33,471 bases of DNA from Candidatus Aenigmatarchaeota archaeon. Its GTDB lineage: Archaea; Aenigmatarchaeota; Aenigmatarchaeia; JACPZZ01. Shown in pieces: positions 5,265 through 20,606 of this stretch (its first letter is position 1; every line of letters begins with the position of its first letter). The DNA lies in contig JACPZZ010000030.1 of NCBI GenBank assembly GCA_016195275.1, positions 1-33,471 of the forward strand. Reading direction: 5' to 3'. The notes under the pieces were generated by a model, which did no database searches, was not told where the DNA came from, and was given only the letters and a program-made list of their open reading frames with translations. A program made the position numbers and the translations under genes.

Positions 5265-5912
5265 TCAAATAATCTCGACGCGTATTGATTTGTCCACAAG
5301 TTTCCTGAACTCGTTCGGGTCCGCCTTTATTTTTCCGTTCGAGTCGTAATGCATCGGCACAACAATTTTTGGTTTGATTGCGTTCGTTGCCATCGCAGCT
5401 TCCTTGTAATCCATTGTGTAGAATCCGCCTATAGGCAATAAGGCGACGTCGACCTTTCCAAGATTTTTCATTTCAGGGATAAAATCGGTATCGCCGGGAT
5501 GGTAAATTGTTAATTTGTTCACGGTAATCAGATAACCAACACCCAAGCCCTTTGGATGGAACGGCTTGCCGGGTTCGCGGAACTTGTTGATATTATACGC
5601 AGGCACAACCTTGATCGCAATTTTGTCTATGTCAAACTCGTCGCCCGCCTCCACCGTTTTTACGTCCAGCCCGTCCAGCATTTTCGCGCAGCCTTCCGGC
5701 GCTATCACCGTACCGTTTTCCAGCAAATCGCGTATGTTTTCTTCGGCGCAATGGTCGAAATGCTCGTGCGTTGTTAAAATCAGTTCAGCTTTCCTGCCAT
5801 CGTCCGGCTTTATGTACGGGTCTATGTAAAACGAATAATCTTTATGAGTTATACGGAAAGACGCATGGCCGAGATGCTCTATTTTCACGTCGTTTATCGT
5901 TAACTCGCCCAT
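5265..5912 (-). CDS. Metallo-beta-lactamase-fold hydrolase, UPF0173-like
   Basis: IEHLGHASFRI..., LTTHEHFDHC, YHPGDTDFIPEM, PIGGFYTMD. Confidence 0.88.
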   Translation of the reverse strand: MGELTINDVKIEHLGHASFRITHKDYSFYIDPYIKPDDGRKAELILTTHEHFDHCAEENIRDLLENGTVIAPEGCAKMLDGLDVKTVEAGDEFDIDKIAIKVVPAYNINKFREPGKPFHPKGLGVGYLITVNKLTIYHPGDTDFIPEMKNLGKVDVALLPIGGFYTMDYKEAAMATNAIKPKIVVPMHYDSNGKIKADPNEFRKLVDKSIRVEII

Positions 5913-5985
5913 GACAACACCACAACCATTTACTGCTTTTGTTTTTTATATGTTTTTAAATTTCAATACCGCCAAGTATGCATCA

Positions 5986-6924
5986 ATGTGGAATGGCAAA
6001 AAAGACCTGCTGGGCATGAATGACCTGTCCAAAGAGGAGATAGAGGGCGTAATACGTTATTCTTCAGCCCTTGAACCGCTTTCCGGCAAGGGCTCCAAGC
6101 TGGGCATATGCAGGGGCGAGATACTCATCAGCGCCTTTTTCGAACCGAGCACAAGGACAGTAACCAGCTTTGCAGCCGCGATGCACACCCTTGGCGGCGA
6201 TGTGCAGACGTTTCTCGAATCCGGCTCGTCCATTGAAAAGGGCGAAACCAAGGAAGACACAATACGCACGCTCGAACAGTACGGCGATGCCCTTGTCATC
6301 AGGGATAGCGATCCCGGTTCTGTTGCCCGTTACGCATCATTGGTCAAAGTTCCTGTAATAAACGCGGGCGACGGCATCAACGAGCATCCAACGCAAGCTT
6401 TGTATGACATGTACACCATATGGAAACAGTTTGGCAGGTTGACAAACCTTAGGATCGCGGTTGTGGGCGGCCTGAAATATTACAGGCCCTCAAACTCCCT
6501 GGTAATGGGTTTGGGAAAATTCGAGGGCAACAAAATATTCGGTATTTGCCCGCCGGGCCTTAGCTTGTCAAAACAATACAGCAACGGCTGTTACGAGGAA
6601 ATGCAGATTAACATGACCCATCTCAACGAGGTCCTGGAAAAAATAAAGCCGGATGTCGTGTATGTGACAAGGCTGAAAAAAGAGTACATGCCGCCGAATG
6701 AAGATACTAAAAATTACTTCTATGTTGTGGACAACAAGACAATGGCTGTATTGCCGCAGAATTGTATTGTCATGCACGCCCTTCCGCGGGTTTGGGAGAT
6801 AAACACCGAGATTGATTCGGATCCGCGCGCAATAATGTTCAAGCAGGCCCGCCATTCGCTGCAGGTGAGAATGGCAGTATTGGCCCTGTTTTTAGGACAC
6901 GAAGACGAACTCAAGAAACTCTAA
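5986..6924 (+). CDS. pyrB: Aspartate carbamoyltransferase catalytic chain
   Basis: FFEPSTRT, EKGETKEDTI, NAGDGINEHPTQALYD, HALPR. Start chosen at MWNGKKDLLGM because TATA-like tttttatatg lies ~40 nt upstream. Confidence 0.92.
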   Translation: MWNGKKDLLGMNDLSKEEIEGVIRYSSALEPLSGKGSKLGICRGEILISAFFEPSTRTVTSFAAAMHTLGGDVQTFLESGSSIEKGETKEDTIRTLEQYGDALVIRDSDPGSVARYASLVKVPVINAGDGINEHPTQALYDMYTIWKQFGRLTNLRIAVVGGLKYYRPSNSLVMGLGKFEGNKIFGICPPGLSLSKQYSNGCYEEMQINMTHLNEVLEKIKPDVVYVTRLKKEYMPPNEDTKNYFYVVDNKTMAVLPQNCIVMHALPRVWEINTEIDSDPRAIMFKQARHSLQVRMAVLALFLGHEDELKKL

Positions 6925-7867
6925 CTTTTCCGAACACGCGGGCTATGTTCCCGAATGTGAGGTCATCAAGTTGCTTTTCTGTAAACCCTCCTGTGCGAAG
7001 TCTTCCAAGAAGCGCGGCGTACAAATTCAAGCTTTGTATCCCGGACATGTACGGGCTGTTTAATTTTTCGTCTGCTGTGTGAGGCGCGTGATCTGTTTCT
7101 ATCCAGTCTATTTTTCCTTGCCGCAAGGCAAGCATCAAACCGTCCCGTGTTTTCGCATCCCGTATGGGAGGGTTCACTTTGAACATTAAACCGTTTTTCA
7201 TCGCATCGTATTCTGAATAAAGGAGATGATGCGGCGTTACTCCGCAAGTTATTCTGATGTTTTTTCTAGCTGCATCGACTAATTCAACAGCTTCAGGCGT
7301 GGATATGTGGCATACATGAACCGTGCCTTTGAAACCTGCCTCCTGCGCGAATTTTATCTGGTCGCGCACCGATTCAACCTCGGCGGCATTCGACCGTGCG
7401 TAATTCCATGTTTCAGGTTTGGCAGGATCCCACAAACCATTTCTAAACAGGCCTTCTTTCTCACAATGGACTGCAACAACGCCTTTGTATCCCGCGTCGG
7501 CAAGCGTTCTGTAAACAATTGCCTGATCCTTCCCATTAATAACAGAGATATCTCCAACAGACCGGCCGGCATACATTTTCATGCCGATAACGCGATCATG
7601 GTTTGTTACAAGGTCTACAGCTTCTTCTATCTGCTTAGGATCTTTTGTGACCCCGACATAGAGATAATATCCATTCTTAATTCCATATTCTTCCGCGGTG
7701 CGCAACCTTCTTTCAACCAGTTCGCGGGAAATTATAGGCGGCTCTGTGTTTGGCATGTCAAATACAATATCTACCCCGCTGGCTTTTGCAAGTGAAACCA
7801 CATCTTTTATTGTGGCCTTGTAAGATTGTTTCCAGTCGCGGCAATGAACATGAGGATCGATTCGCAT
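6911..7867 (-). CDS. pyrC: Dihydroorotase
   Basis: RIDPHVHCRD, DMPNTEPP, GMKMYAG, CHISTPEA, TPHHLLYSE, ETDHAPHT. Confidence 0.92.
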   Translation of the reverse strand: MRIDPHVHCRDWKQSYKATIKDVVSLAKASGVDIVFDMPNTEPPIISRELVERRLRTAEEYGIKNGYYLYVGVTKDPKQIEEAVDLVTNHDRVIGMKMYAGRSVGDISVINGKDQAIVYRTLADAGYKGVVAVHCEKEGLFRNGLWDPAKPETWNYARSNAAEVESVRDQIKFAQEAGFKGTVHVCHISTPEAVELVDAARKNIRITCGVTPHHLLYSEYDAMKNGLMFKVNPPIRDAKTRDGLMLALRQGKIDWIETDHAPHTADEKLNSPYMSGIQSLNLYAALLGRLRTGGFTEKQLDDLTFGNIARVFGKVRVS

Positions 7868-7900: not shown

Positions 7901-8803
7901 TCAAACGTCTTTAATTTCCCCATGAAATCTTCCAATTTTTCGTAACCTTTCTTTTGCATATACGCTTTCAGAATCGGGGCCCTGCTGCATGAACACGCTG
8001 CCCGCCTGCACTGCGGACGCGCCCGCAAGAATAAATTCAAAAACGTCCGTGCCGGTATAAACGCCGCCGCAGCCTATGATAGGAATTTCAGGTAGAAGCT
8101 CGTGGAATTTATTTACATTGGCAAGAGCTGTATACTTCACATATTTTCCGCCCAAGCCGCCGAAGCCGCCCTTCGGTTTTATGACCACGCTTTCTTTTTC
8201 CGGATCGATAACCAGCGCATTGCCTATGGAATTTATGCACGTGGCAAAAGCTATCCTGTGTTTTTGCAGTATTTCCGCCATCTGCTCAAAATGGACGAAA
8301 TCAAAATAAGGGGATAGCTTCACACCAATCGGTTTTTTGCAGACCCTAACCACCTGTTTCAAAACTTCATCGCTCTGCTCAAAATCATAGCACACCTGCG
8401 GTTTTCCGGCTATGTTTGGGCATGACAAATTAAGTTCGATAAGATCCGCCTCAGAATCATTGAATGCGCTGACGATCTCAACATTGTCTTCAAGTTTCAG
8501 CCCGGAAACGCTCGCGACAACAGGCTTTCCGTGTTGCTTCAGGACCGAGGTAAAATTAACATACTCCCTGTAACCCAGATTTGGAAGCCCCATCGAGTTT
8601 ATGGAGCCTTCGGGCAGGTCGTAATACCTTGGCTCCGCATTTCCTGTTCTCGGATCAAGCGTGCAGGACTTCATTGTTATTGCGGAAGACGCGGATTTCG
8701 CTATGGCTTCAAGCTCTTCAAGCGTTACATCTTTTGGGCCTGCCGCATTGAAAACGCAGTTTTCCAATTCCACGCCTGCGATCTTGGCGGATATATCTGT
8801 CAT
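7901..8803 (-). CDS. pyrD: Dihydroorotate dehydrogenase
   Basis: NAAGPKDVT, NSMGLPNLGY, ELNLSCPNIAGKPQVCYDFE, IGCGGVYTGTDVFEFILAGASAVQAGS. Confidence 0.92.
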   Translation of the reverse strand: MTDISAKIAGVELENCVFNAAGPKDVTLEELEAIAKSASSAITMKSCTLDPRTGNAEPRYYDLPEGSINSMGLPNLGYREYVNFTSVLKQHGKPVVASVSGLKLEDNVEIVSAFNDSEADLIELNLSCPNIAGKPQVCYDFEQSDEVLKQVVRVCKKPIGVKLSPYFDFVHFEQMAEILQKHRIAFATCINSIGNALVIDPEKESVVIKPKGGFGGLGGKYVKYTALANVNKFHELLPEIPIIGCGGVYTGTDVFEFILAGASAVQAGSVFMQQGPDSESVYAKERLRKIGRFHGEIKDV

Positions 8804-8932: not shown

Positions 8933-10126
8933 ATGGTTAACTTAACCGGGAAAAACGTCTTCGCCAAAGTGGACATGAACTCCTCTTTCGACGAGAAGAC
9001 GGGCTATTTCCGCGACATAGAAAAGATACTGCAAGCTGTTAAGACGATAAAATTTGCCTTTGAAAAAGGTGCGCGTTCCGTGATAGTCGCATCGCACCAG
9101 GGCGACCAGGGCAAGAACGAAACGCTAAAAAACCATGTCGTAGCCATTAAGCTCCACTTGCCGCACGTGGACATAAAATTCGCGGGCTTTCGGGCTTCTT
9201 CAGACATAACTGGCATGCTCGGCGGCAATGCTGTTGTTATTCTGGAAAACACCAGAAGCGACGAAGAGGAATGGAATTTTACTGATGTAAAAGAAACGAA
9301 AATGTACCGGATGATAAAACAAATCCCCAACCTGGCTTTTCTCAAAGACGACCCAGCTTCCCACAGAAAAGAATTGACAACATACCACATACCTAAAATG
9401 CTGCACGAAGAGGGCTGTGAAGTCGTCGCAGGCCCTGTTCTGCAGGAAGATATAGAACTTGCCGCCAAGGTCACCAAGATTCTGGAAGAAACGGACTCGT
9501 TTGCCATACTGGGCGGCAAAAAACTGCCCGACCAGCTCGAGATCTTGCCGCAAATGCTGAAAAAGTTCCCTCGCATGCGCGCGATGCTTGGCGGCCTGTT
9601 CTCGGTCTACGTGGAGCGGGCGCAGGGCAAAAACGTCGGAGAAAACGAAAAATTGTGGAAGGACGAAGAAAAGCTTCTCGAAGCTGCAAAATCAATGATA
9701 AACGAATTCAACGGCCGCATAATGCTGCCCTCGGATTATTGCATAAACAACGGTTTCGGTTGTGTGTGCGCGCCTGTTAGCGAGCTTGCCAATGGAAAGG
9801 TTATTGACATAGGGCCGGATACAATCTTGAAATACATGGAGACCATAAGCTCTGCAAAAAACGCAAGCATTCTAATCAACGGTGCAACAGGATTTTACGA
9901 GGCCGCGCCTTCAATAAACGAACCCGGGATGCGCGGCGCTGCTCACGTTTATTCTGAAGCGTTCGACGAAAAGCACGGTCACATTGTCATGGGCTTTGGC
10001 GGCGATTCGATGGTCGTGTTTAACCGCCTCGGATTTAAACCGCACGTCAACAGTTCTTCTGGAAAAGCTTTTTTCAAGCGCGTGATCTACGGACCTTACT
10101 ACGGCCTGGAGTGGTTGAAAAAATAA
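8933..10126 (+). CDS. pgk: Phosphoglycerate kinase (highly divergent)
   Basis: KVDMN, VASHQGDQG, VILENTR, ILGGKKL, LINGATGFYE, MGFGGDS; next to gapdh and tpiA. Confidence 0.82.
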   Translation: MVNLTGKNVFAKVDMNSSFDEKTGYFRDIEKILQAVKTIKFAFEKGARSVIVASHQGDQGKNETLKNHVVAIKLHLPHVDIKFAGFRASSDITGMLGGNAVVILENTRSDEEEWNFTDVKETKMYRMIKQIPNLAFLKDDPASHRKELTTYHIPKMLHEEGCEVVAGPVLQEDIELAAKVTKILEETDSFAILGGKKLPDQLEILPQMLKKFPRMRAMLGGLFSVYVERAQGKNVGENEKLWKDEEKLLEAAKSMINEFNGRIMLPSDYCINNGFGCVCAPVSELANGKVIDIGPDTILKYMETISSAKNASILINGATGFYEAAPSINEPGMRGAAHVYSEAFDEKHGHIVMGFGGDSMVVFNRLGFKPHVNSSSGKAFFKRVIYGPYYGLEWLKK

Positions 10127-10141
10127 TTCGGGGGTATTGAA

Positions 10142-11173
10142 ATGATTTCGGTGTGCGTAAACGGTTACGGAACAATTGGAAAACGCGTAGCAGACGCTTT
10201 GGGCAGGCACCCTGAAATAAAACTTGTCGGAGTTTCAAAATTCACGCCTGACGCGGACGCGCGGATCGCATCGTCAAAAGGCATCAGGATTTTTGTTCCA
10301 AAGGAAAATCACGACGCTTTCGTGAAATTTGGCATTCAGCCAGCCGGCGACACCGAAGAAATGATCGACGTTTCCGAAATCATTATAGACGCTTCCCCTG
10401 ACAAAAAAGGGATCAAAAACAAGGAGGAAATATACGTTCCGAAAGGCAAGCGCGCGATATTCCAGGGCGGCGAAAAGGAGAACGTTGCCGAAGTAAGTTT
10501 CAATGCGCGCAGCAATTTCAACGCAGCCAAAAACAAAAATTACGTCCGCGTAGTCAGTTGTAACACAACAGGATTATGCAGGATTATAAAACCGATGCTG
10601 GAAAACCGTGACGACCTGGAAAGGATATCCGTTTCATTGATAAGGCGCGGTTCGGACCCGAACGATTCCAAAGGATCCGCATTAAACTCTGTCGAATGGG
10701 AATCCAATTCACATCACGCGCACGACGTGCAAACTGTGTTAGGTTCGCTTCCCATAACGACAACCGCTTTCAAGGCCCCGCAAACATTGATGCATGTTCA
10801 TTCCATATCAATGCGTTTCAAAGACGCTGCGCCGTCAAAACAGGACGTGGAAAATATCTACGCAAAAGAATCGCGTGTCGCTTTGCTTCGTACCGCGTCA
10901 TCGACAGCGGACATCATTGAAAAGGCCCGCGACCTGGGCTTCAGCAGGAACGATATCTTCCTGGTAAACCTGCACTCAAACACCATAGTATCCGACAAAA
11001 ACGAGCTATCAATGGCGATAACAGTCCCGCAGGAGTCGATAGTTACGCCTGAGGATGTTGATGCTGCTGTATCCATGTCCGGCTTGATGAACCAGGAAAA
11101 TTCCATGGAATTAACAAACAAGATCATGGGGCTCGGCAACATTAAGAGCAAATTGGAAGCCGCGTTCGGTTGA
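10142..11173 (+). CDS. gap: Archaeal (type II) glyceraldehyde-3-phosphate dehydrogenase
   Basis: VCVNGYGTIGKRVADAL, IFQGGEK, VVSCNTTGLCRI (active-site Cys), RRGSDPNDSKG. Confidence 0.95.
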   Translation: MISVCVNGYGTIGKRVADALGRHPEIKLVGVSKFTPDADARIASSKGIRIFVPKENHDAFVKFGIQPAGDTEEMIDVSEIIIDASPDKKGIKNKEEIYVPKGKRAIFQGGEKENVAEVSFNARSNFNAAKNKNYVRVVSCNTTGLCRIIKPMLENRDDLERISVSLIRRGSDPNDSKGSALNSVEWESNSHHAHDVQTVLGSLPITTTAFKAPQTLMHVHSISMRFKDAAPSKQDVENIYAKESRVALLRTASSTADIIEKARDLGFSRNDIFLVNLHSNTIVSDKNELSMAITVPQESIVTPEDVDAAVSMSGLMNQENSMELTNKIMGLGNIKSKLEAAFG

Positions 11174-11201
11174 AATAAATTAAGATGGGGTTGGTGTACG
11201 A

Positions 11202-12293
11202 ATGAAGACTACGATAACAGTGATAAAGGCTGACATAGGCTCTATAGGCGGGCACACAAGGCCGTCCGAAGAACTTTTGAACAGCGTGAAAAAATATGTC
11301 AGTGATGCTAAAACAGCAGGCCTGATAATTGACAGTTACGTCGGCTACGCAGGCGACGACATACATATCGTAACGACGCACACCAAAGGTGTGAACAACG
11401 CCGAAATACACAAATTGGCCTGGGACGCATTCAGCAAAAGCGTGGCTGTTGCGAAGGAGCAGGGTTTGTACGGCGCAGGCCAGGACTTGCTGGTAGATGC
11501 ATTCTCGGGAAATGTAAGAGGAATGGGGCCGGGCGTGGCGGAAATGGAATTTGACGAGCGCCCGAACGAGGCCTTTGCCGTGTTCGCGGCGGATAAAACA
11601 GAGCCGGGCGCGTTCAACTATCCCCTGTTTACAATGTTTTGCGACATAAAATCAAACACAGGCTTGTTGATTAACCCGTCGCTTGCGAGAGGCGTTGTAT
11701 TTACAATAATGGATGTGATGAAAAACCGTGTTGTCGAACTGGAAACGTGGAACCAGATGCCGGAAATTGCAGCGATTTTGATGTACCCCGGCCGCTACGT
11801 CGTTGAGTCGGTGAAAACAAAGGACGGCGAACCGATCGTGTCCGCAACAACCGACCGTTTGCACAACATCAAAGGGACTTATGTGGGCAAGGATGACCCG
11901 GCCATGGTCATAAGGTTGCAAAAAACGTTTCCCGCTACAGAGGAGGTATGCTACGCATTCAAGGACGCGCACTTTGTTGCCGGCGACACGCGCGGATCCC
12001 ATCATATGACACTGATGCCGGTTAGGATAAACACGACCGCAACGTCCTACTTTTGCAATCCGCTCGTGTCCGCATTGCTGTTTAGTTCGCACAACGGGAA
12101 ATTAACAGGCCCAATCGACGGCTTCGAAGGATCTAACTGGGATTTGGTAAGGCAGAAAGCTGCGGAAAAGTCGGAAGGCATGCGCGCGCAGGGCTTCGTG
12201 CACCCGGCAACGCTGATCCCCGAAGAGCTGGAATACAACCAGGGCTACCAGGAGATAATGGGCCGCATAGAAAAATTATTCAGGCAGCGTTAA
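11202..12293 (+). CDS. fbp: Fructose-1,6-bisphosphate aldolase/phosphatase
   Basis: TVIKADIGSIGGHTRPSEEL, VGYAGDDIHIVTTH, YVGKDDPAM, RGSHHMTLMPV. Confidence 0.95.
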   Translation: MKTTITVIKADIGSIGGHTRPSEELLNSVKKYVSDAKTAGLIIDSYVGYAGDDIHIVTTHTKGVNNAEIHKLAWDAFSKSVAVAKEQGLYGAGQDLLVDAFSGNVRGMGPGVAEMEFDERPNEAFAVFAADKTEPGAFNYPLFTMFCDIKSNTGLLINPSLARGVVFTIMDVMKNRVVELETWNQMPEIAAILMYPGRYVVESVKTKDGEPIVSATTDRLHNIKGTYVGKDDPAMVIRLQKTFPATEEVCYAFKDAHFVAGDTRGSHHMTLMPVRINTTATSYFCNPLVSALLFSSHNGKLTGPIDGFEGSNWDLVRQKAAEKSEGMRAQGFVHPATLIPEELEYNQGYQEIMGRIEKLFRQR

Positions 12294-12295
12294 AG

Positions 12296-12955
12296 ATGTC
12301 CATTTTCGTGATAAACTTTAAATCGTACCAGGAAATGCTCGGCGAAAGCGGAAGAAAACTTGCAGAACACTCAAAAAAAATCTCCTCTGGCCTTGGCGTG
12401 AATATTGTAATCGCGCCGGCGTTTACAGACATAAGGTTTTTATCAGGCATCGTTCCTGTAATAGCGCAGCACATAGACAGCGCGGAGCCGGGCGCGCACA
12501 CCGGTTCAATAACAGCGGAATCGGTTAAAATGGCCGGTGCAATAGGAACCATTATCAACCATTCCGAAAGGAAACTCAGTTTTGAGGACATTGAACTGTG
12601 CATTGCGCGGGCAAAGAAAAACGATCTTATGACGATTTGCTGCGCCGATTCGCCGGAAACTGCAGCTTCAATCGCCAAGTTAGGGCCGGACTATGTTCTT
12701 ATAGAACCGCCGGAACTGATAGGAACCGTGAATTCTGTTTCAAAAACAAGTCCGGAAATAATAAAACGCACTGTAGAGCTTGTGAAATCCGCAAACCAGA
12801 ATGTCGGTGTAATCTGCGGAGCCGGCGTTTCAACAGGCGAAGACGCGCGCATAGCGAAATCGCTGGGTGCAATAGGCGTTGCCGCCGCATCGGCCGTTGC
12901 GAAATCAAAAACGCCCAAGCGTGTGATAGAAGACGTAGCAAGCGGTTTAGTTTAA
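12296..12955 (+). CDS. tpiA: Triosephosphate isomerase (archaeal type)
   Basis: FVINFKSYQEMLG, AQHIDSAEPGAHTG, INHSERKL, IEPPELIGT, CGAGVSTGED. Confidence 0.93.
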   Translation: MSIFVINFKSYQEMLGESGRKLAEHSKKISSGLGVNIVIAPAFTDIRFLSGIVPVIAQHIDSAEPGAHTGSITAESVKMAGAIGTIINHSERKLSFEDIELCIARAKKNDLMTICCADSPETAASIAKLGPDYVLIEPPELIGTVNSVSKTSPEIIKRTVELVKSANQNVGVICGAGVSTGEDARIAKSLGAIGVAAASAVAKSKTPKRVIEDVASGLV

Positions 12956-13668
12956 CTAGCCAGTTTTACAGCCCCGTATTTTTCATAATACTCAACCCAT
13001 AGCCTCTTGTTTTCTGCGCTGACCTTGTCTTTCATGACTTCGAATATATCGCTCATTTTTATTATCGGGAAAACGTTTATTCCGTAATCCCTTGCCATCA
13101 TTTCAGAAGCGCTTAAATCCTGCACATCCACGGCATCGCCCATTTTTTCCTGGCGGTCAACAGCTATGACCATGCCCGCTATTTTGTAATCGCCAAGCGC
13201 TTTCAGCTTCTCTATCGCTTCTGTTTTCGTTTCTCCGGTAGTTATCACGTCATCCACAACCAGTATCCTGCTGCCGGGTTTGAAATGGCTGGCACCGATG
13301 ATTATCTGGTCAGCCTTCTTGTCCCCATACGCTTTCATTTCCTTCCTGTCATAGATAAGCCGCCTATTGATGCCGTATAACTCACTTAACCCCTCGCAGG
13401 CTAGCGCAGCGAGTGTTATTCCCCTGTAGGCAAGGCCGAACACGAAATCAAAATCTTCGATTCTCCCTTCTTTCAGGAGTTCCATTATTTTTTGCGCAAA
13501 CGCTGTTTTTATCTTATTCAGGGATTTTCCGTCAGTCAGGTGTCCCATGTTCACATAATTCGGAGACTTGCGGCCCATTTTGAAAACGAAAAGGTCGCCT
13601 TTTCCCCTGGAAAATTTTATCGCACCTTCAGATGTTAAGAATTTTACAAAATCCTCCTCAAGGCTCAT
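12952..13668 (-). CDS. pyrE: Orotate phosphoribosyltransferase
   Basis: FGLAYRGITLAA, YDRKEMKAYGDK, ILVVDDVITTGETKTEAI. Confidence 0.92.
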   Translation of the reverse strand: MSLEEDFVKFLTSEGAIKFSRGKGDLFVFKMGRKSPNYVNMGHLTDGKSLNKIKTAFAQKIMELLKEGRIEDFDFVFGLAYRGITLAALACEGLSELYGINRRLIYDRKEMKAYGDKKADQIIIGASHFKPGSRILVVDDVITTGETKTEAIEKLKALGDYKIAGMVIAVDRQEKMGDAVDVQDLSASEMMARDYGINVFPIIKMSDIFEVMKDKVSAENKRLWVEYYEKYGAVKLAS

Positions 13669-14588
13669 GCCATGACCCTCCTGTTGATTTCCTCAGCTAT
13701 CAAAGATGAGATTGACACGCTGCTGACAGGCGTTTCTATAGAATCGCTTACAACAACCGCGTCTGTTTTGTTCCTCAGTATCTCAAGCGAGTTGCCGTTA
13801 AAAAGCCCGTGCGTCGCCGCAACAGCTATGCTTTTTGCGCCTTCTGCCCTGACTTTATCCACGGCCTTGACCATTGTGGAACCGGACGCTATCATGTCGT
13901 CCATGATTATTACCCTCTTGTCTTTAAAGTTGACATCGCTCCTGATTTCGCTGACTGCGTACTCCTTTTTGCGACCCGGACACCTGCATTCTGTTTCCGG
14001 TTTCCCGCAGTCAGGGCAAACCTTGTTCTTTGTCATGAATAAAGATTTACCGGTCGCGTATTGTATCATTTCAGACGATCCCATGTCCGGCCCGATGACA
14101 ATTGCTTCGCCGATTTTACCGCTTAAAGAGTCCAGCAAAATCCTGGCCGCCGACACATTAACCCCGTCCATGCCATGCAAGGTGAATTTTCCAGCTTTTC
14201 TATGGAAATGTGCGTCAGCCGTTATTAAAAACGAGATGCCCGAGGTCCTGAGCAGCTTCATCACAACCTCGAGGCTTGACGCTCCCCCATTCTGGAAAAC
14301 CTTATCCTGCCTTGAGTAGGCCAGATAAGGAATTACAGCAGAAAGGTTCTGCGCGCCTTTCCGGATCGCGGCGTCCGCAAGCAGCATAATCTCCATCAGG
14401 GAATCGTTTTGATTGGGATAACAAGTCTGCACGATTATGGCGTTTTCTCCGGCAAGCTCGTTGTCGATTCTGATATAGGTCTCCCCGTCCTGGAATTTTT
14501 TTGCATGCGCTTCTGCGACACGGCAGCCTGATGCCTGCGCTATGCGCGCCGCAAGTTTTGTTGAGTTGGAGCCGGGTATAACTATCAT
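13665..14588 (-). CDS. prs: Ribose-phosphate pyrophosphokinase (PRPP synthetase) with a Cys-rich loop insertion
   Basis: PYLAYSRQDK, TADAHFHRK, GPDMGS, RVIIMDDMIASGSTM; overlaps pyrE by 4 bp. Confidence 0.93.
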   Translation of the reverse strand: MIVIPGSNSTKLAARIAQASGCRVAEAHAKKFQDGETYIRIDNELAGENAIIVQTCYPNQNDSLMEIMLLADAAIRKGAQNLSAVIPYLAYSRQDKVFQNGGASSLEVVMKLLRTSGISFLITADAHFHRKAGKFTLHGMDGVNVSAARILLDSLSGKIGEAIVIGPDMGSSEMIQYATGKSLFMTKNKVCPDCGKPETECRCPGRKKEYAVSEIRSDVNFKDKRVIIMDDMIASGSTMVKAVDKVRAEGAKSIAVAATHGLFNGNSLEILRNKTDAVVVSDSIETPVSSVSISSLIAEEINRRVMA

Positions 14589-15379
14589 GCTGTTCCCGCC
14601 TTTCCCAGCATTTCATTATAATTTTTAAGCCTGCTTTTTACATCGTCCGAGAATATGACATCCCTTCCAAGGCTAACCAGCGGGTTTTCTGCCGGTTTTA
14701 TTTTTTCTATTTCGCCGCCTTGCGGGCCGAGTCCCTGCAAAAGGAACACTTTATCGTTTCCGGCCAGTCTCTGCACATTGGATATGTGCTCAGCCTTCAC
14801 AAAATTCGTAATGCCCACAACGCAGCCGTCCGCTCCTGTTGTTTTCACCTCTTTCGCTATACGCAGATAATATTCCTCGCCGTCCAATTTTGACAATATC
14901 GTCTTTTCCGCCTCCGGGTTTGACATTACAGTCAGCACTATGACTCCTAGACCCTTCCGGTGCGCATAGCTTGTGGTTTGCGCGGTGTTGCCTGCGAAAG
15001 GTGAGAATGTGAAAGCGTCGAACCCCATTTTTGATATCCAGCTTATCGCAGCCTCGTTGGTAGAGCCTATGTCCGACAGCTTGTGGTCCAAAATCGCCAG
15101 CAACCCGTGGTTTTTTGCGGCCTTGGAGATCTTTGCAAGTATTTTGGTATCGTTTAGGAAATATTGCGTATTCGGTTTTATGGAACAGCAGAGGTCAGAA
15201 ACTTTTTCTATAAGATCAAGTGAGAAATTTAGTATTGTTTCCGAATCGCTTTCCGACAGGAAATTTTTTGGTATCGTGTGGCTGCTGCGGTGCCATGGCA
15301 GGGCAGGATCCAGATTAATGTTTATTATGCTGCCCTTTTCGTCGGACGCTTTCCGATATTTTTCAAGAAACGTTTCCAT
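14585..15379 (-). CDS. pyrF: Orotidine-5'-phosphate decarboxylase
   Basis: ININLDPA, SIKPN, LDHKLSDIGST (DxKxxD), GLGPQGGE. Confidence 0.9.
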   Translation of the reverse strand: METFLEKYRKASDEKGSIININLDPALPWHRSSHTIPKNFLSESDSETILNFSLDLIEKVSDLCCSIKPNTQYFLNDTKILAKISKAAKNHGLLAILDHKLSDIGSTNEAAISWISKMGFDAFTFSPFAGNTAQTTSYAHRKGLGVIVLTVMSNPEAEKTILSKLDGEEYYLRIAKEVKTTGADGCVVGITNFVKAEHISNVQRLAGNDKVFLLQGLGPQGGEIEKIKPAENPLVSLGRDVIFSDDVKSRLKNYNEMLGKAGTA

Positions 15380-16082
15380 GATTAATCGCCTCATAGTGCG
15401 CATTTTTGGGTCTAAGGTGCATTACGCCTCTCTTTGTTCCTATTATGGCATGGCTTGCCATTAATATGAAAAGCCCTGTTTCCAGTACGCCGCTGGTTTT
15501 CTTCAGCCTCCTTTCCGCGTAGCTAAGGTCTGTTTTCCCTGTGTTCAGGTCCAGTATGAAATTTCCGCTATCCGTGATAAAAGGCTTTCCGTTCACATTC
15601 CTGAGCGCGGGCTTGAAATCCTTCAGGGCGTCAATTATGCCGGGATAGCTGTCTTTTGATATTTCTATGGGCAGGATTCCTTTTTTCCCCAGGCGTTTCA
15701 CCATTTTCGATTCGTCCGCTATTACGACAAAGATGCCCGCTTTCGACGCGACAACCTTTTCACGCAGCAATGCACCGCCGTATCCTTTTATCAGGTTTAA
15801 TTCCGGATCGATCTCGTCCGCGCCGTCTATTGCGATGTCTATTTTCTCCGCCTTTTCCGCAGGCAAAACCTTTAAACCCTGCTCTTTAGCAAGTTTTTTT
15901 GTTTCCCGCGAAGTGGGTATTCCAAAAAATTCCAGGCCGTTCTTGGCCCTTCTTCCAAGCTCTTCGAGTAAAAATTTGCATGTGCTTCCTGACCCTAGGC
16001 CTGCAATCTGCCCGCTCTGCACAAGCTTCGCAGCCTCGATCGCAGCCATTTTTTTCAGGGCATCCGAATCTGAACCACGCAT
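15363..16082 (-). CDS. rpiA: Ribose-5-phosphate isomerase A
   Basis: GLGSGSTCKFLLEELG, DIAIDGADEIDPELNLIKGYGGALLREK, PIEI, ETGLF. Confidence 0.93.
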   Translation of the reverse strand: MRGSDSDALKKMAAIEAAKLVQSGQIAGLGSGSTCKFLLEELGRRAKNGLEFFGIPTSRETKKLAKEQGLKVLPAEKAEKIDIAIDGADEIDPELNLIKGYGGALLREKVVASKAGIFVVIADESKMVKRLGKKGILPIEISKDSYPGIIDALKDFKPALRNVNGKPFITDSGNFILDLNTGKTDLSYAERRLKKTSGVLETGLFILMASHAIIGTKRGVMHLRPKNAHYEAINHGNVS

Positions 16083-16101
16083 AGTAAGGCCTCGTCAACT
16101 A

Positions 16102-16121
16102 CCACCTAACAAGTTAGGTGG
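16102..16121. repeat. 9-bp stem / AA-loop hairpin at the tnpB 3' end (IS605-type right-end hairpin)
   Basis: ccacctaac-aa-gttaggtgg; the tnpB stop codon lies inside the stem. Confidence 0.8.
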
Positions 16122-17248
16122 CTTGTAACTATGCTCTGTTGCAGTTGTGCTTTTGCACCAGCAACATCATCACACGAAACGTATGGGCTGTTGACAGAAG
16201 CCCTACCAAGCAAGGCATTGCCGAGCATGGCGATGTTCCTTGACGCATTGAGGTCTGCATCAAGATTAAGCCCGCATTTGTGACAGGAGAAAAGATTTCC
16301 ATGCCTGAAAGACTTTTGAGTTGTAGCACAGACAGAACAGGTCTGACTTGTGTAGGCGGGATTCACGAAGATGGTCCGCTTTCCGATGTCTCTGGTTTTG
16401 TATTCAACAAATCTTTGGAGTTGCCTGAAAGACCAGCTTCCGAGCTTCTTGTTGAATTTCCTGCCGAATTTTCTGTCCTTTCTGACAGACAGTTTTTCAA
16501 AGACGAACGTATTGTTTTTGCTATTTATAATCGTCTTGCTTATTTGATGGTTGATATCAGCAACGAAACGGTTTTCTCTCCCGCTTATTTTCTTGAGAAG
16601 TCTTTTTGCGGAACGAGTGCCTTTTTGCTGGAGTTTCCTTCGCATATAGAAAAACTCTCCTTTTCTCCTCTTCAAATGTTTGGACGCATAAAATGTATTA
16701 TCGGAACAGACAGCAATCTTGTTGATGCCACAGTCGATGCCGAGTGTTTTGATTCTTTTGTATTTGAACTGTTTATCTTTGATTTCAATAATAAGTTTGC
16801 ACAAAAAGAAATCCTGTCTTGGCGCAAGAACCATACCTTTGACAGTTCCAAAAGCGTATTTTTTGAAATGCTTTGGAATAGTTATTTGAAACTTTTTTCT
16901 GCCTTCAATCGTGCTTACGCTAATAATTCCCTGTTTGAGTTTAGGTGTATAAGTCCTTGCATTGTATCTGACAGAGCCATTAATCCTCTTGACAGGTTTG
17001 TTTCTTTCAAACCCGCTTCTTTTGAGAATATCGCTTGCCTGGTCTCTTGCACACTGGACGAGGGAACTTTGAAGAGAAGGATATGTCCTGCGAAGAAGCC
17101 TATAGGAATGTTTGTGCAATTCGTTTTTGTTGAAAGTCTTGGTTTCCCAGCCAATATCTATGCAATCCTGGACAGCCTTGTTAAAAATTGCTGTTGTTTT
17201 ATTGAGATTTTCATCATGCGGAATTTTAACAGCTATGGTTCTTTGCAT
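16106..17248 (-). CDS. tnpB: TnpB-family RNA-guided nuclease / IS605-IS1341 accessory protein (no tnpA nearby)
   Basis: LGIDCGINKIAV (RuvC-I), FVFEKLS (RuvC-II), TCSVC...FSCHKCG zinc ribbon, LDADLNASRNI (RuvC-III). Confidence 0.95.
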   Translation of the reverse strand: MQRTIAVKIPHDENLNKTTAIFNKAVQDCIDIGWETKTFNKNELHKHSYRLLRRTYPSLQSSLVQCARDQASDILKRSGFERNKPVKRINGSVRYNARTYTPKLKQGIISVSTIEGRKKFQITIPKHFKKYAFGTVKGMVLAPRQDFFLCKLIIEIKDKQFKYKRIKTLGIDCGINKIAVCSDNTFYASKHLKRRKGEFFYMRRKLQQKGTRSAKRLLKKISGRENRFVADINHQISKTIINSKNNTFVFEKLSVRKDRKFGRKFNKKLGSWSFRQLQRFVEYKTRDIGKRTIFVNPAYTSQTCSVCATTQKSFRHGNLFSCHKCGLNLDADLNASRNIAMLGNALLGRASVNSPYVSCDDVAGAKAQLQQSIVTSHLTC

Positions 17249-17376
17249 ATTATTTCATTAGAAGTGAGAATATTTATAGAAAACCATACTGCCGGACAAA
17301 GGCTGGATAATCAGGGAGCTTCGTGTCATGCCGGGGCATATACACCTGTTTATTTCTACACCTCCTTACGAATCGC

Positions 17377-18510
17377 CTACGGGAATGACGTTTTTTCTAT
17401 TCCTGCCTTTATGAAAATTTTTATCGCACTCTCATTTGATACAGGCTTCACATTCTTGGAAACGTCCTGGAACTTCCACTGCGGCTCGTATATTTTCTGT
17501 ATGTCTTCTATCGTCATGGTGTTATTGCCGCCTTCCAGCATATTTATTATGTCGCGCACGAGCAGTTCGTAGGGTGTTGCGCCCGAGGGTATTCCGCCCT
17601 CCACAACGCGCGGCTTGCCATCTGGGACTTCCCACAACTGCCATGTGCCTCTGAAGTCCGAATTATACTCCTGCTCCGAATCTGCGTAATTGATCTCCAG
17701 AAACGCGTCTGTCTCAAGGTAAAATCTGATTGTTTTGCATGTAACGCCGTGCGGGAACCCTTTGCCGACTCTTATTGTGACTGTGGCGCTGTCCGCAAAA
17801 AGCCGGCCTTTTACATTGAATACCGCCTGCACAGCAGTCGGGTTCACGCCGTCGTATTCCGGCCTTATGATAAAAGTCTCTACGCCCCTGCAGTCTGCAA
17901 ACTCGGCGCCGGCATATTTGTAAAGCACTTCGATCGGGTGTATCCAGTCAAGAAATATGCCCCCGCTTTCCGGTTTCAATATCCACGTTCTTCTTCTGTC
18001 TTCTGCGTTTTCCTGCTCAAAAAACGTGGCTGCAACCGATATAACTTTCCCGTATTCTCTGGTCGCGTTCACCAGAAGGCTTGGCAAACTCATCGTAAGA
18101 GCTTTCCTTAGGTAATGAAGGTGCAGGTGTACCTTATTGTACCAATTGTTTTTCTTGATATAATCAATGACCTTGTCCATTTCGGATTTGTTGATGCCGA
18201 AAGTTTTTTCAACTACGACGGCCTTGCCATGGTCTATACACTGCAGTATCTGGCTGGCATGGAACTGGTTGGGGCTGGCTATGTAAGCTAGTTGTATGTC
18301 CTGGAAAAAATTTTCCGGCAGGGGGTCGCCCGGATTTATCTGAAAATAGTTTTCCCTGCCAAGGCCCAGTTTTTCCATGATTCCGATTTTTTCCTCGTAA
18401 GATTTTAGGCCAACTGCCTTTGTTATCGCTATTCGCCCGCCGCGTTGTATAGATCTCTGGAGCCTTTCAAACCAGTGGCCCATGCCGATTGCGCCGAGAT
18501 TGTATGTCAT
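17377..18510 (-). CDS. Gfo/Idh/MocA-family NAD(P)-dependent dehydrogenase with G6PDH-like HYLxK motif
   Basis: MTYNLGAIGMGHWFERLQ; AVVVEKTFGINKSEMDKVIDYI; HLHLHYLRK; GGIFLDWIHPIEVL. Confidence 0.8.
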   Translation of the reverse strand: MTYNLGAIGMGHWFERLQRSIQRGGRIAITKAVGLKSYEEKIGIMEKLGLGRENYFQINPGDPLPENFFQDIQLAYIASPNQFHASQILQCIDHGKAVVVEKTFGINKSEMDKVIDYIKKNNWYNKVHLHLHYLRKALTMSLPSLLVNATREYGKVISVAATFFEQENAEDRRRTWILKPESGGIFLDWIHPIEVLYKYAGAEFADCRGVETFIIRPEYDGVNPTAVQAVFNVKGRLFADSATVTIRVGKGFPHGVTCKTIRFYLETDAFLEINYADSEQEYNSDFRGTWQLWEVPDGKPRVVEGGIPSGATPYELLVRDIINMLEGGNNTMTIEDIQKIYEPQWKFQDVSKNVKPVSNESAIKIFIKAGIEKTSFP

Positions 18511-18515
18511 ACGTT

Positions 18516-19433
18516 TCAACTTTTCGCTTCTTTGTTTTTCGCCTTGACCGCATGTCCGCCGAACTCGTTACGTAACGCCGCCAGAACTTTGTCGCTGAAA
18601 GAATCCTTTCTGGAACGGAACCGCGCAAAAAGCGCATGCGACAAACCCGTAAATGGCACGCCATGCTCGATGGCGGCCTGTGTGGCCCAGCGTCCCTCGC
18701 CCGTGTCCTCAACAAAACCTTCGATGTTCTCGAGCTTCGGGTCTTTGCTTAGCGCACGTTCAACCAGCTCAACAAGGTATGAGCGGACAACAGAACCGCG
18801 GTTCCATAGGTAAGCTATTTTTCTGAGGTCAAGCCCTTTGTAAGGCCCCTGTTCCAGAAGTTCAAAACCCTCGCCTATTGACTGCATCATGCCGTACTCA
18901 ATCGCGTTATGAACCATCTTGACAAAGTGGCCTGAGCCCGCCGGCCCGGTATACTCGACGCCTTCGGGAACGCTTACGTCCTTGAACAGAGGCTCCAGCG
19001 CCTTGAAAATTTCTTCGTCCCCGCCGACCATTATGCACATCCCGTTCCGCGCGCCAGACGGCCCTCCGGAACAGCCTGCGTCCAGGAAGTGTATGCCTCT
19101 TTGCAAAAGTTCTTTGTGCCGCCTTGCGCTTTCCTTATAGTTCGAGTTGCCGGCATCGATGATTGTGTCGCCGCTTTGCGTGTGCGGTTTAATCTTTTCA
19201 ATTACTTCGTCAACCGCTTCCGGCGGGACCATTATCCAGACTATTCTGGGCGGCGCAAGAAGCTTAACAGCCTCTTCAAAGCTGTACGCCGGTGCTGCGC
19301 CGCTTTGTTTTAATTCGTTTATGGGTTCGGGCGAACGGTTGGCTGCAACAACTTTGTAGCCTTTGGAAAGAAGCTGTAATGCGACGTTCTTTCCCATCTT
19401 TCCCAGCCCGATCACGGCAACGGTTTTGTCCAT
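18516..19433 (-). CDS. gnd: 6-phosphogluconate dehydrogenase, decarboxylating (short form)
   Basis: MDKTVAVIGLGKMGKNVALQL, DAGNSNYKES, LDAGCSGGPSGARNGMCIMVGG, GHFVKMVHNAIEYGMMQ. Confidence 0.92.
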   Translation of the reverse strand: MDKTVAVIGLGKMGKNVALQLLSKGYKVVAANRSPEPINELKQSGAAPAYSFEEAVKLLAPPRIVWIMVPPEAVDEVIEKIKPHTQSGDTIIDAGNSNYKESARRHKELLQRGIHFLDAGCSGGPSGARNGMCIMVGGDEEIFKALEPLFKDVSVPEGVEYTGPAGSGHFVKMVHNAIEYGMMQSIGEGFELLEQGPYKGLDLRKIAYLWNRGSVVRSYLVELVERALSKDPKLENIEGFVEDTGEGRWATQAAIEHGVPFTGLSHALFARFRSRKDSFSDKVLAALRNEFGGHAVKAKNKEAKS

Positions 19434-19526: not shown

Positions 19527-20606
19527 CTAAGCCTTCAAATTTTTGTAACGCCTGGACAGGTAACCCAGTGCTATCCTGTAGAGCAGTTTGTTGTACGAAT
19601 AGTCGCGCCCGTTGATAGCGGATAAGATCCTGCTTTTGCCTTTGCTGCTGTTAATTGAGTTTATGATAAAATTATACGTCAGGTTGTTGCCGAATATTTC
19701 CTGCATGAAACGCGATACCATGGAATTTTTCAGCCTGCTTTCGAAATATTCAGTTGCCAACTCCTGATAATTTTTGTTTTCTATTATGCTTTTTGATGCA
19801 AGATAACCTGACGTTATCGCGCGCCTTATGCCGAAACCCAGGAACATGTCCTGCAGGCCCGCAGCCTCCCCCACGTAAAGTTTTCCGCCGGATTGGAACT
19901 CGTTTTTTAAGGAGAACGTGGCTACGCCGCCGACAGCCTTCGGATTCCTGATATCCGGGTCAAAATGCTTTTCAAAAATCTTTTTCGCGCTGTCGAAGCA
20001 GGCGTTCAGTTTTTGAAACTGGCCGGCGAGCATTGTGCACATGCAGCCGTAGCCGTTCGTAACCAGCATATACGCGTACGCTTTAACGTGGGCCTTGTCG
20101 TCTACAAGGCACACAACATGGTTTTCCATGCTGGTTTCGAAAACTATGCCCTTGTCAACCGCGAAAATTTCCTTGCCCGCAGGCCCCGTGGCTATGATAT
20201 TCGCCTCCTCCTTCGGCATTGTGCGGTTGAACGTTATCCGGACGCCGCTGTCAACAGCCTGCTCTTTGAGGCCTGTATCAAGGGTTCCCTTGAAAGGTCC
20301 GCGTTTGAAAAGGTAAAGAGGCGTATCCATTTTCATAGTGCATTGCCTTTCATCTGTCATTAATATGCACTCGTTGAAAGGGTCGCAGTCGAAATTTATT
20401 TTTATGTTCATATCAGCCAGGTCTTTGATTACGTCCTTGTCGTACGGCTTGGCTTCAAACCCCTGTAAATCCCCGCCAAACCTGTGCCCGCAATCTTTTC
20501 CGCTTTCAAAAACTTCCACCTCAAATCCGGCTTTGGCAAGGTTTATAGCTGCGGACAGCCCGGCCGGCCCTGCACCTGCTATTTTTATTTTATCCAATGC
20601 TACCAA
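19527..20606 (-). CDS. FAD-dependent oxidoreductase, geranylgeranyl reductase family
   Basis: IAGAGPAGLSAAINLAKAGFEVEVFE (Rossmann) and YVGEAAGLQDMFLGFGIRRAITSGYLAS. Confidence 0.85.
   Translation of the reverse strand: MVALDKIKIAGAGPAGLSAAINLAKAGFEVEVFESGKDCGHRFGGDLQGFEAKPYDKDVIKDLADMNIKINFDCDPFNECILMTDERQCTMKMDTPLYLFKRGPFKGTLDTGLKEQAVDSGVRITFNRTMPKEEANIIATGPAGKEIFAVDKGIVFETSMENHVVCLVDDKAHVKAYAYMLVTNGYGCMCTMLAGQFQKLNACFDSAKKIFEKHFDPDIRNPKAVGGVATFSLKNEFQSGGKLYVGEAAGLQDMFLGFGIRRAITSGYLASKSIIENKNYQELATEYFESRLKNSMVSRFMQEIFGNNLTYNFIINSINSSKGKSRILSAINGRDYSYNKLLYRIALGYLSRRYKNLKA

Follow-up and report, generated by a model that had tools for sequence, protein, structure and literature searches.

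A minus-strand gene cluster of Candidatus Aenigmatarchaeota archaeon probably encodes an oxidative pentose phosphate branch that is opened by an unusual glucose-6-phosphate (G6P) dehydrogenase (G6PDH) of the Gfo/Idh/MocA family and feeds Gnd, RpiA and Prs. The cluster lies on contig JACPZZ010000030.1, of which positions 1 to 33,471 were analyzed (hereafter the window, 33,471 nucleotides). The source genome is a metagenome-assembled genome of 1.07 Mb that is 83% complete. Ribose phosphate supply in archaea is a patchwork, with the ribulose monophosphate (RuMP) route in most lineages and the G6PDH Azf together with Gnd in haloarchaea. To our knowledge, the route is unknown in many DPANN archaea. 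In the cluster described here, gnd is followed by a gene for a Gfo/Idh/MocA-fold oxidoreductase (hereafter the Gfo/Idh protein) that is a good candidate for the missing G6PDH.

By family scores and motifs, Gnd is a genuine short 6-phosphogluconate dehydrogenase (6PGDH). It exceeds both curated cut-offs for short 6PGDHs (Table 1), and its closest solved structures in the PDB are 6PGDHs (E 1e-66). The catalytic K-x-x-H-N-x-x-E motif is present as KMVHNAIEYG and the SGG substrate motif as CSGGPSG, and both are kept in relatives. In 6PGDHs, an NRS after the second strand points to NADP+, and its presence in Gnd suggests that NADP+ is the cofactor. Weaker gnd matches in three of the 156 genomes grouped with the source genome (hereafter the class; G126, G026 and G005) are without the HN motif and resemble 3-hydroxyacid dehydrogenase-type proteins.

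Open reading frame (ORF) and family scans show that the genes are arranged on the minus strand as gnd, Gfo/Idh, tnpB, rpiA, pyrF, prs and pyrE. A first-pass annotation had described six nearly contiguous, partly overlapping genes of these families interrupted only by tnpB, and the scans recover exactly this arrangement. A gap of 5 bp separates gnd from the Gfo/Idh gene; pyrF shares 4 bp with prs, and prs shares 4 bp with pyrE. The rpiA/pyrF overlap is up to 41 bp, depending on the choice among three in-frame pyrF ATGs. For gnd, an in-frame TTG (19460) precedes the ATG at 19433, and the Gfo/Idh gene may start at a TTG at 18519 in place of the ATG at 18510. The best NCBIfam match of pyrF is TIGR02127 (75 bits), below its cut-off. 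From the gene overlaps we infer that gnd to pyrE may form a single transcription unit. At the 3' end of the tnpB element (16101-17248) there is a terminal inverted repeat (ccacctaac tt gttaggtgg), and no tnpA adjoins the element.

The AlphaFold model of the Gfo/Idh protein (predicted local distance difference test score, pLDDT, 89.5) has Gfo/Idh family members or fold relatives as its best Foldseek matches, among which glucose-fructose and aldose-aldose oxidoreductases rank high. Profile-profile comparison matches the family to ordinary Gfo/Idh proteins with 99% probability, and PF01408 is matched over its cut-off, so that the protein falls within Gfo/Idh/MocA. Membership in the canonical G6PDH family, Zwf, was rejected: there is no PF00479 or PF02781 match, the profile probability is only 27%, and a GxGHW turn replaces the GxxGDL fingerprint.

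The predicted pocket is nevertheless G6PDH-like. In human G6PD, Lys171 of the EKPxG motif is in contact with O1 of G6P and with the ribose of the nicotinamide, and the phosphate is held by His201, Tyr202 and Lys205. Asp200 and His263 form the catalytic dyad, with Asp258 near the substrate (PMC11448927). In the alignment to this enzyme, K102, H132, Y133, K136, H191 and D188 keep the G6PDH residue, and L131 is the equivalent of Asp200. The pocket residues K102, H132, Y133, K136, E165, D188 and H191 are invariant in seven of seven family members compared. The combination of H132 and K136 is found in none of the 17 ordinary Gfo/Idh proteins of the class. The alignment of the family and Zwf profiles is ungapped from EK to HYLxK, and the Lys-to-His spacing is 30 in both. 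D-H-H-x-x-K is found in the distant member L033 and D-H-Y-x-x-K in L065, a fusion with an HPr-like domain. The Gfo/Idh profile and fold, taken together with the G6PDH-like residues, thus point to a Gfo/Idh/MocA protein whose substrate site resembles that of G6PDH, through convergence or shared ancestry.

The Gfo/Idh family closely follows gnd. A profile built from seven members finds seven of the 156 class genomes at 94-626 bits, and the next best protein scores 35 bits. Each of the seven also has a 6PGDH match above 100 bits, which eight genomes of the class show (hypergeometric 2e-11, a value that assumes independent genomes, which these are not). Gfo/Idh and gnd are direct neighbors in G000, G001, G083 and G119 and at two further loci, L008 and L009, with the order swapped in L009. 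They lie one gene apart in G052, G040 and G096, where the G096 member is distant and the G040 copy is broken. In G040 (L029:8673-9684), the Gfo/Idh frame is lost and the HLHYxxK stretch is missing, reflecting either decay or an assembly error; gnd, two genes downstream, is intact. Phylogenetic placement puts L008 in Microcaldota and L009 in Methanobacteriota, so the pair also occurs in two other phyla. A wider search of the phylum of L009 found the family in only one of 394 genomes, and the gene is therefore rare there. The partner Gnd is of the short subtype (TIGR00872) in most cases, long and canonical in G052 (TIGR00873, 695 bits) and divergent, below the cut-offs, in G083. Since the subtypes differ, the pairing follows function and not one transferred block.

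G148, the eighth class genome with a 6PGDH match of this strength, lacks the Gfo/Idh family and encodes a complete bacterial-type oxidative branch in the order glucokinase, gnd, pgl and canonical zwf (L031:3130-7244). Its Gnd is 51% identical to that of the window, and it alone among the class genomes exceeds the G6PD_N cut-off. On bacterial plasmids, zwf adjoins the same kind of gnd. The position of the Gfo/Idh gene is thus the one expected for zwf. No viral relatives of the family were found, and the plasmid relatives are only distant ordinary Gfo/Idh proteins (23-32%). The L065 ORF (L108, genome G138) encodes a Gfo/Idh protein in which an HPr-like domain is fused to the N terminus, with the D-H-Y-L-x-K motif and the Glu, Asp and His of the pocket kept. 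This protein is possibly a dehydrogenase of phosphosugars that is linked to a phosphotransferase.

Synteny in a congener (G001, locus L028) supports the core of the cluster. Its order is gins, gnd, Gfo/Idh, rpiA, prs and FAD oxidoreductase, with 4 bp overlaps at both Gfo/rpiA and rpiA/prs and no tnpB between Gfo/Idh and rpiA. We conclude that tnpB probably entered a transcription unit that was densely packed. The first-pass proposal of a six-gene operon leading from G6P to uridine monophosphate (UMP) is thus retained in one relative for gnd-Gfo/Idh-rpiA-prs and not for pyrF and pyrE, which are absent from the congener cluster. In three further congeners, no gnd, Gfo/Idh or prs was detected. 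G083, from another family, encodes pyrF-prs-rpiB with a divergent pyrE (L098:15-2834). Its PyrF is 60% identical to that of the window, and rpiB, an unrelated isomerase for the same step, takes the place of rpiA. The grouping of genes from ribose 5-phosphate (R5P) through phosphoribosyl pyrophosphate (PRPP) to UMP therefore recurs by function.

Other routes to ribose phosphate were not detected in the source genome. It has no match to PF02781 (G6PD_C) at E values up to 10 and none to PF00479 (G6PD_N) at 0.001. The RuMP enzyme 3-hexulose-6-phosphate synthase (HPS, HxlA) has no match, and 6-phospho-3-hexuloisomerase (PHI, HxlB) has none over the cut-off, the sole PHI-like match being GlmS. For the non-oxidative branch, the search covered transketolase, which was rejected because both PF02779 matches, each encoded next to an E1-alpha gene, prove to be the E1-beta subunit of pyruvate dehydrogenase. 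The 6-phosphogluconolactonase family Pgl (PF01182) also has no match. In a genome that is 83% complete, such absences are no more than suggestive. With a genuine Gnd and no zwf, HPS, PHI or transketolase detected, the oxidative route is the only hexose-to-ribulose-5-phosphate route detected, in a search that for G6PDHs was confined to the Zwf domains. The lack of detectable RuMP enzymes and the conserved gnd-Gfo/Idh linkage both agree with the oxidative route anticipated by the first-pass annotation. A PF01182 match in the genome of L008 is nearer to glucosamine-6-phosphate deaminase by NCBIfam and was not counted as Pgl. A metallo-beta-lactamase-fold hydrolase in the window (5265-5912) was considered as a lactonase, but it matches the L-ascorbate-6-phosphate lactonase model at only 43 bits (cut-off 306), and this speculative assignment was not adopted.

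In the proposed pathway, the Gfo/Idh protein would replace canonical Zwf and form 6-phosphogluconolactone by oxidizing G6P at C1, with NAD(P)+ as the acceptor. In its pocket, H132-Y133-x-x-K136 would hold the 6-phosphate, the nicotinamide and O1 of the sugar would be placed by K102, and H191 would serve as general base. Opening of the lactone could be spontaneous or catalyzed by an unrelated hydrolase. Gnd would then form ribulose 5-phosphate (Ru5P) and CO2, RpiA would convert Ru5P to R5P, and Prs would produce PRPP, which PyrE and PyrF may consume for UMP in the window strain. We infer the substrate, product, cofactor, flux and co-transcription of this route.

Several observations weigh against this pathway. 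The profile probability to Zwf is low, the dyad partner Asp200 is replaced by Leu131, the Pro of EKPxG is Thr or Ser in the family, and the D-H spacing is 3 versus 5 in G6PDH. L065 has the same pocket, yet there is no gnd on its 5.5-kb contig. The source genome is incomplete and has no detected Pgl. Furthermore, Gfo/Idh enzymes act on many sugars. The protein could oxidize a different phosphosugar, or another carbon of G6P, as is reported for the Bacillus G6P 3-dehydrogenase NtdC, and work with Gnd in a pathway that departs from the classical oxidative branch. The phosphate-binding motif argues for a phosphosugar and not for C1 oxidation as such, the Asp200 partner is missing, and the top Foldseek matches include enzymes that act at several sugar positions. 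We nonetheless regard this as unlikely, given that the protein is constantly paired with a 6PGDH, which acts on the hydrolyzed product of G6P oxidation at C1, and given the canonical zwf that holds the equivalent place in G148.

It is more doubtful still that 6-phosphogluconate derives from gluconate and a kinase or from host uptake, with the Gfo/Idh protein a dehydrogenase of gluconate or another sugar that is only loosely tied to Gnd. A pocket that binds phosphate would be of little use for gluconate, the pairing is conserved over phyla and Gnd subtypes, and no gluconate kinase is seen in the gnd-Gfo/Idh neighborhoods; such a supply would suit the undetected Pgl and the frequent host dependence of Micrarchaeota (PMC12892359). 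We give just as little weight to the idea that another type of G6PDH, either Azf of the short-chain dehydrogenase/reductase (SDR) family or an F420-dependent enzyme, is encoded elsewhere in the genome while the Gfo/Idh protein does something else. Haloarchaea do have an SDR-type G6PDH (PMC8506132), and the source-genome search for G6PDHs was confined to the Zwf domains, but the strict linkage of the Gfo/Idh gene to gnd would be left unexplained.

The Gfo/Idh-type pathway is set apart from known systems by its first enzyme. Haloferax volcanii is likewise an archaeon that reaches Ru5P via Gnd with a non-Zwf G6PDH, but its Azf is a short-chain dehydrogenase (PMC8506132), whereas the candidate has the Gfo/Idh/MocA fold. 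With classical Zwf, the candidate shares the Lys of E-K, the H-Y-x-x-K at identical spacing, the Glu, Asp and His of the pocket and the location next to gnd. It is about 100 residues shorter and has neither Asp200 nor the GxxGDL fingerprint nor the Pro of EKPxG. Ordinary Gfo/Idh/MocA proteins such as glucose-fructose and aldose-aldose oxidoreductases have the same fold, sequence profile and catalytic EK and D..H residues; the candidate differs in having HLHYxxK, E165, EKT or EKS for EKP, and a conserved linkage to gnd. The G148 cluster and bacterial gnd-zwf-pgl clusters also place a short Gnd beside a G6P-oxidizing gene, but there the partners are canonical Zwf and Pgl. An oxidative pentose phosphate pathway in Micrarchaeota is not new as such, since one is reported for the Anstonellales (PMC12892359). 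The main text of that report gives no first-step enzyme and no Gfo/Idh-type enzyme (PMC12892359).

Three types of G6PDH have been described (PMC8506132), and a Gfo/Idh-type enzyme, if confirmed, would be one more. The open-access literature that we searched names none in archaea. We lean, by a small margin, towards the broader view that a further G6PDH class arose within Gfo/Idh/MocA, with its Zwf-like H-Y-x-x-K acquired or ancestral, and opens the oxidative pathway in several small-genome archaeal lineages without Zwf, RuMP or transketolase. This would explain why annotation pipelines score the oxidative branch as incomplete in such genomes, and the signature EK[TS] ... HLHYxxK next to gnd offers a means of finding the enzyme elsewhere. 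The folds of Zwf and Gfo/Idh are distantly related, and such an enzyme would also be relevant to how Zwf originated.

The purpose first proposed for the pathway is less well supported. The first-pass annotation held that the lineage runs an oxidative pentose phosphate pathway dedicated to nucleotide synthesis. A genuine Gnd and the undetected alternatives favor the pathway itself, but the evidence does not support the dedication: pyrF and pyrE lie outside the congener cluster, and G052 and G040 carry gnd and Gfo/Idh with no prs detected. For these two genomes, NADPH supply would thus be an equally good role.

Table 1. Coordinates and family matches of genes in the window.
Feature	Position	Strand	Family match and remarks
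gnd, short-type 6-phosphogluconate dehydrogenase	18516..19433	-	NF007161 383 bits (cut-off 271), TIGR00872 382 bits (cut-off 297); ATG at 19433
Gfo/Idh/MocA-fold oxidoreductase, candidate G6P 1-dehydrogenase	17377..18510	-	PF01408 weak, 31 bits
tnpB, RNA-guided nuclease of IS200/IS605-type element	16106..17248	-	NF040570 161 bits
rpiA, ribose-5-phosphate isomerase A	15363..16082	-	TIGR00021 232 bits, cut-off 126
pyrF, orotidine-5'-phosphate decarboxylase	14585..15403 (longest ORF)	-	PF00215 74 bits
prs, ribose-phosphate diphosphokinase (PRPP synthase)	13665..14588	-	TIGR01251 217 bits, cut-off 113
pyrE, orotate phosphoribosyltransferase	12952..13668	-	TIGR00336 118 bits, cut-off 107
pgk, gapdh (type II), bifunctional fructose-bisphosphate aldolase/phosphatase, tim (gluconeogenic cluster)	8933..12955	+	
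pyrD	7901-8803	-	
pyrC-like dihydroorotase	6911-7867	-	
pyrB-like carbamoyltransferase	5911..6924	+	PF02729/PF00185

The window encodes further genes of central metabolism. The plus-strand gluconeogenic cluster converges on pyrE, reaching 4 bp into it, and is retained in the congener. It is a likely upstream source of hexose phosphate. The pyrC-like and pyrD genes make up the remainder of the pyrimidine pathway in the window, which also has the pyrB-like gene. The dihydroorotase-like protein (318 aa) has no Pfam match at 0.001 and reaches the cut-off of none of the NCBIfam models shown; a homolog in G052 is encoded on the opposite strand and flanked by gnd and Gfo/Idh. Elsewhere in the source genome, two separate pyruvate dehydrogenase E1 alpha/beta pairs are encoded on contigs 24 and 2 (L088, L094), one followed by an E2-like gene. 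An FAD oxidoreductase (19527-20606) with distant likeness to geranylgeranyl reductases lies upstream of gnd in the window and downstream of prs in the congener, indicating that this gene has moved within the cluster.

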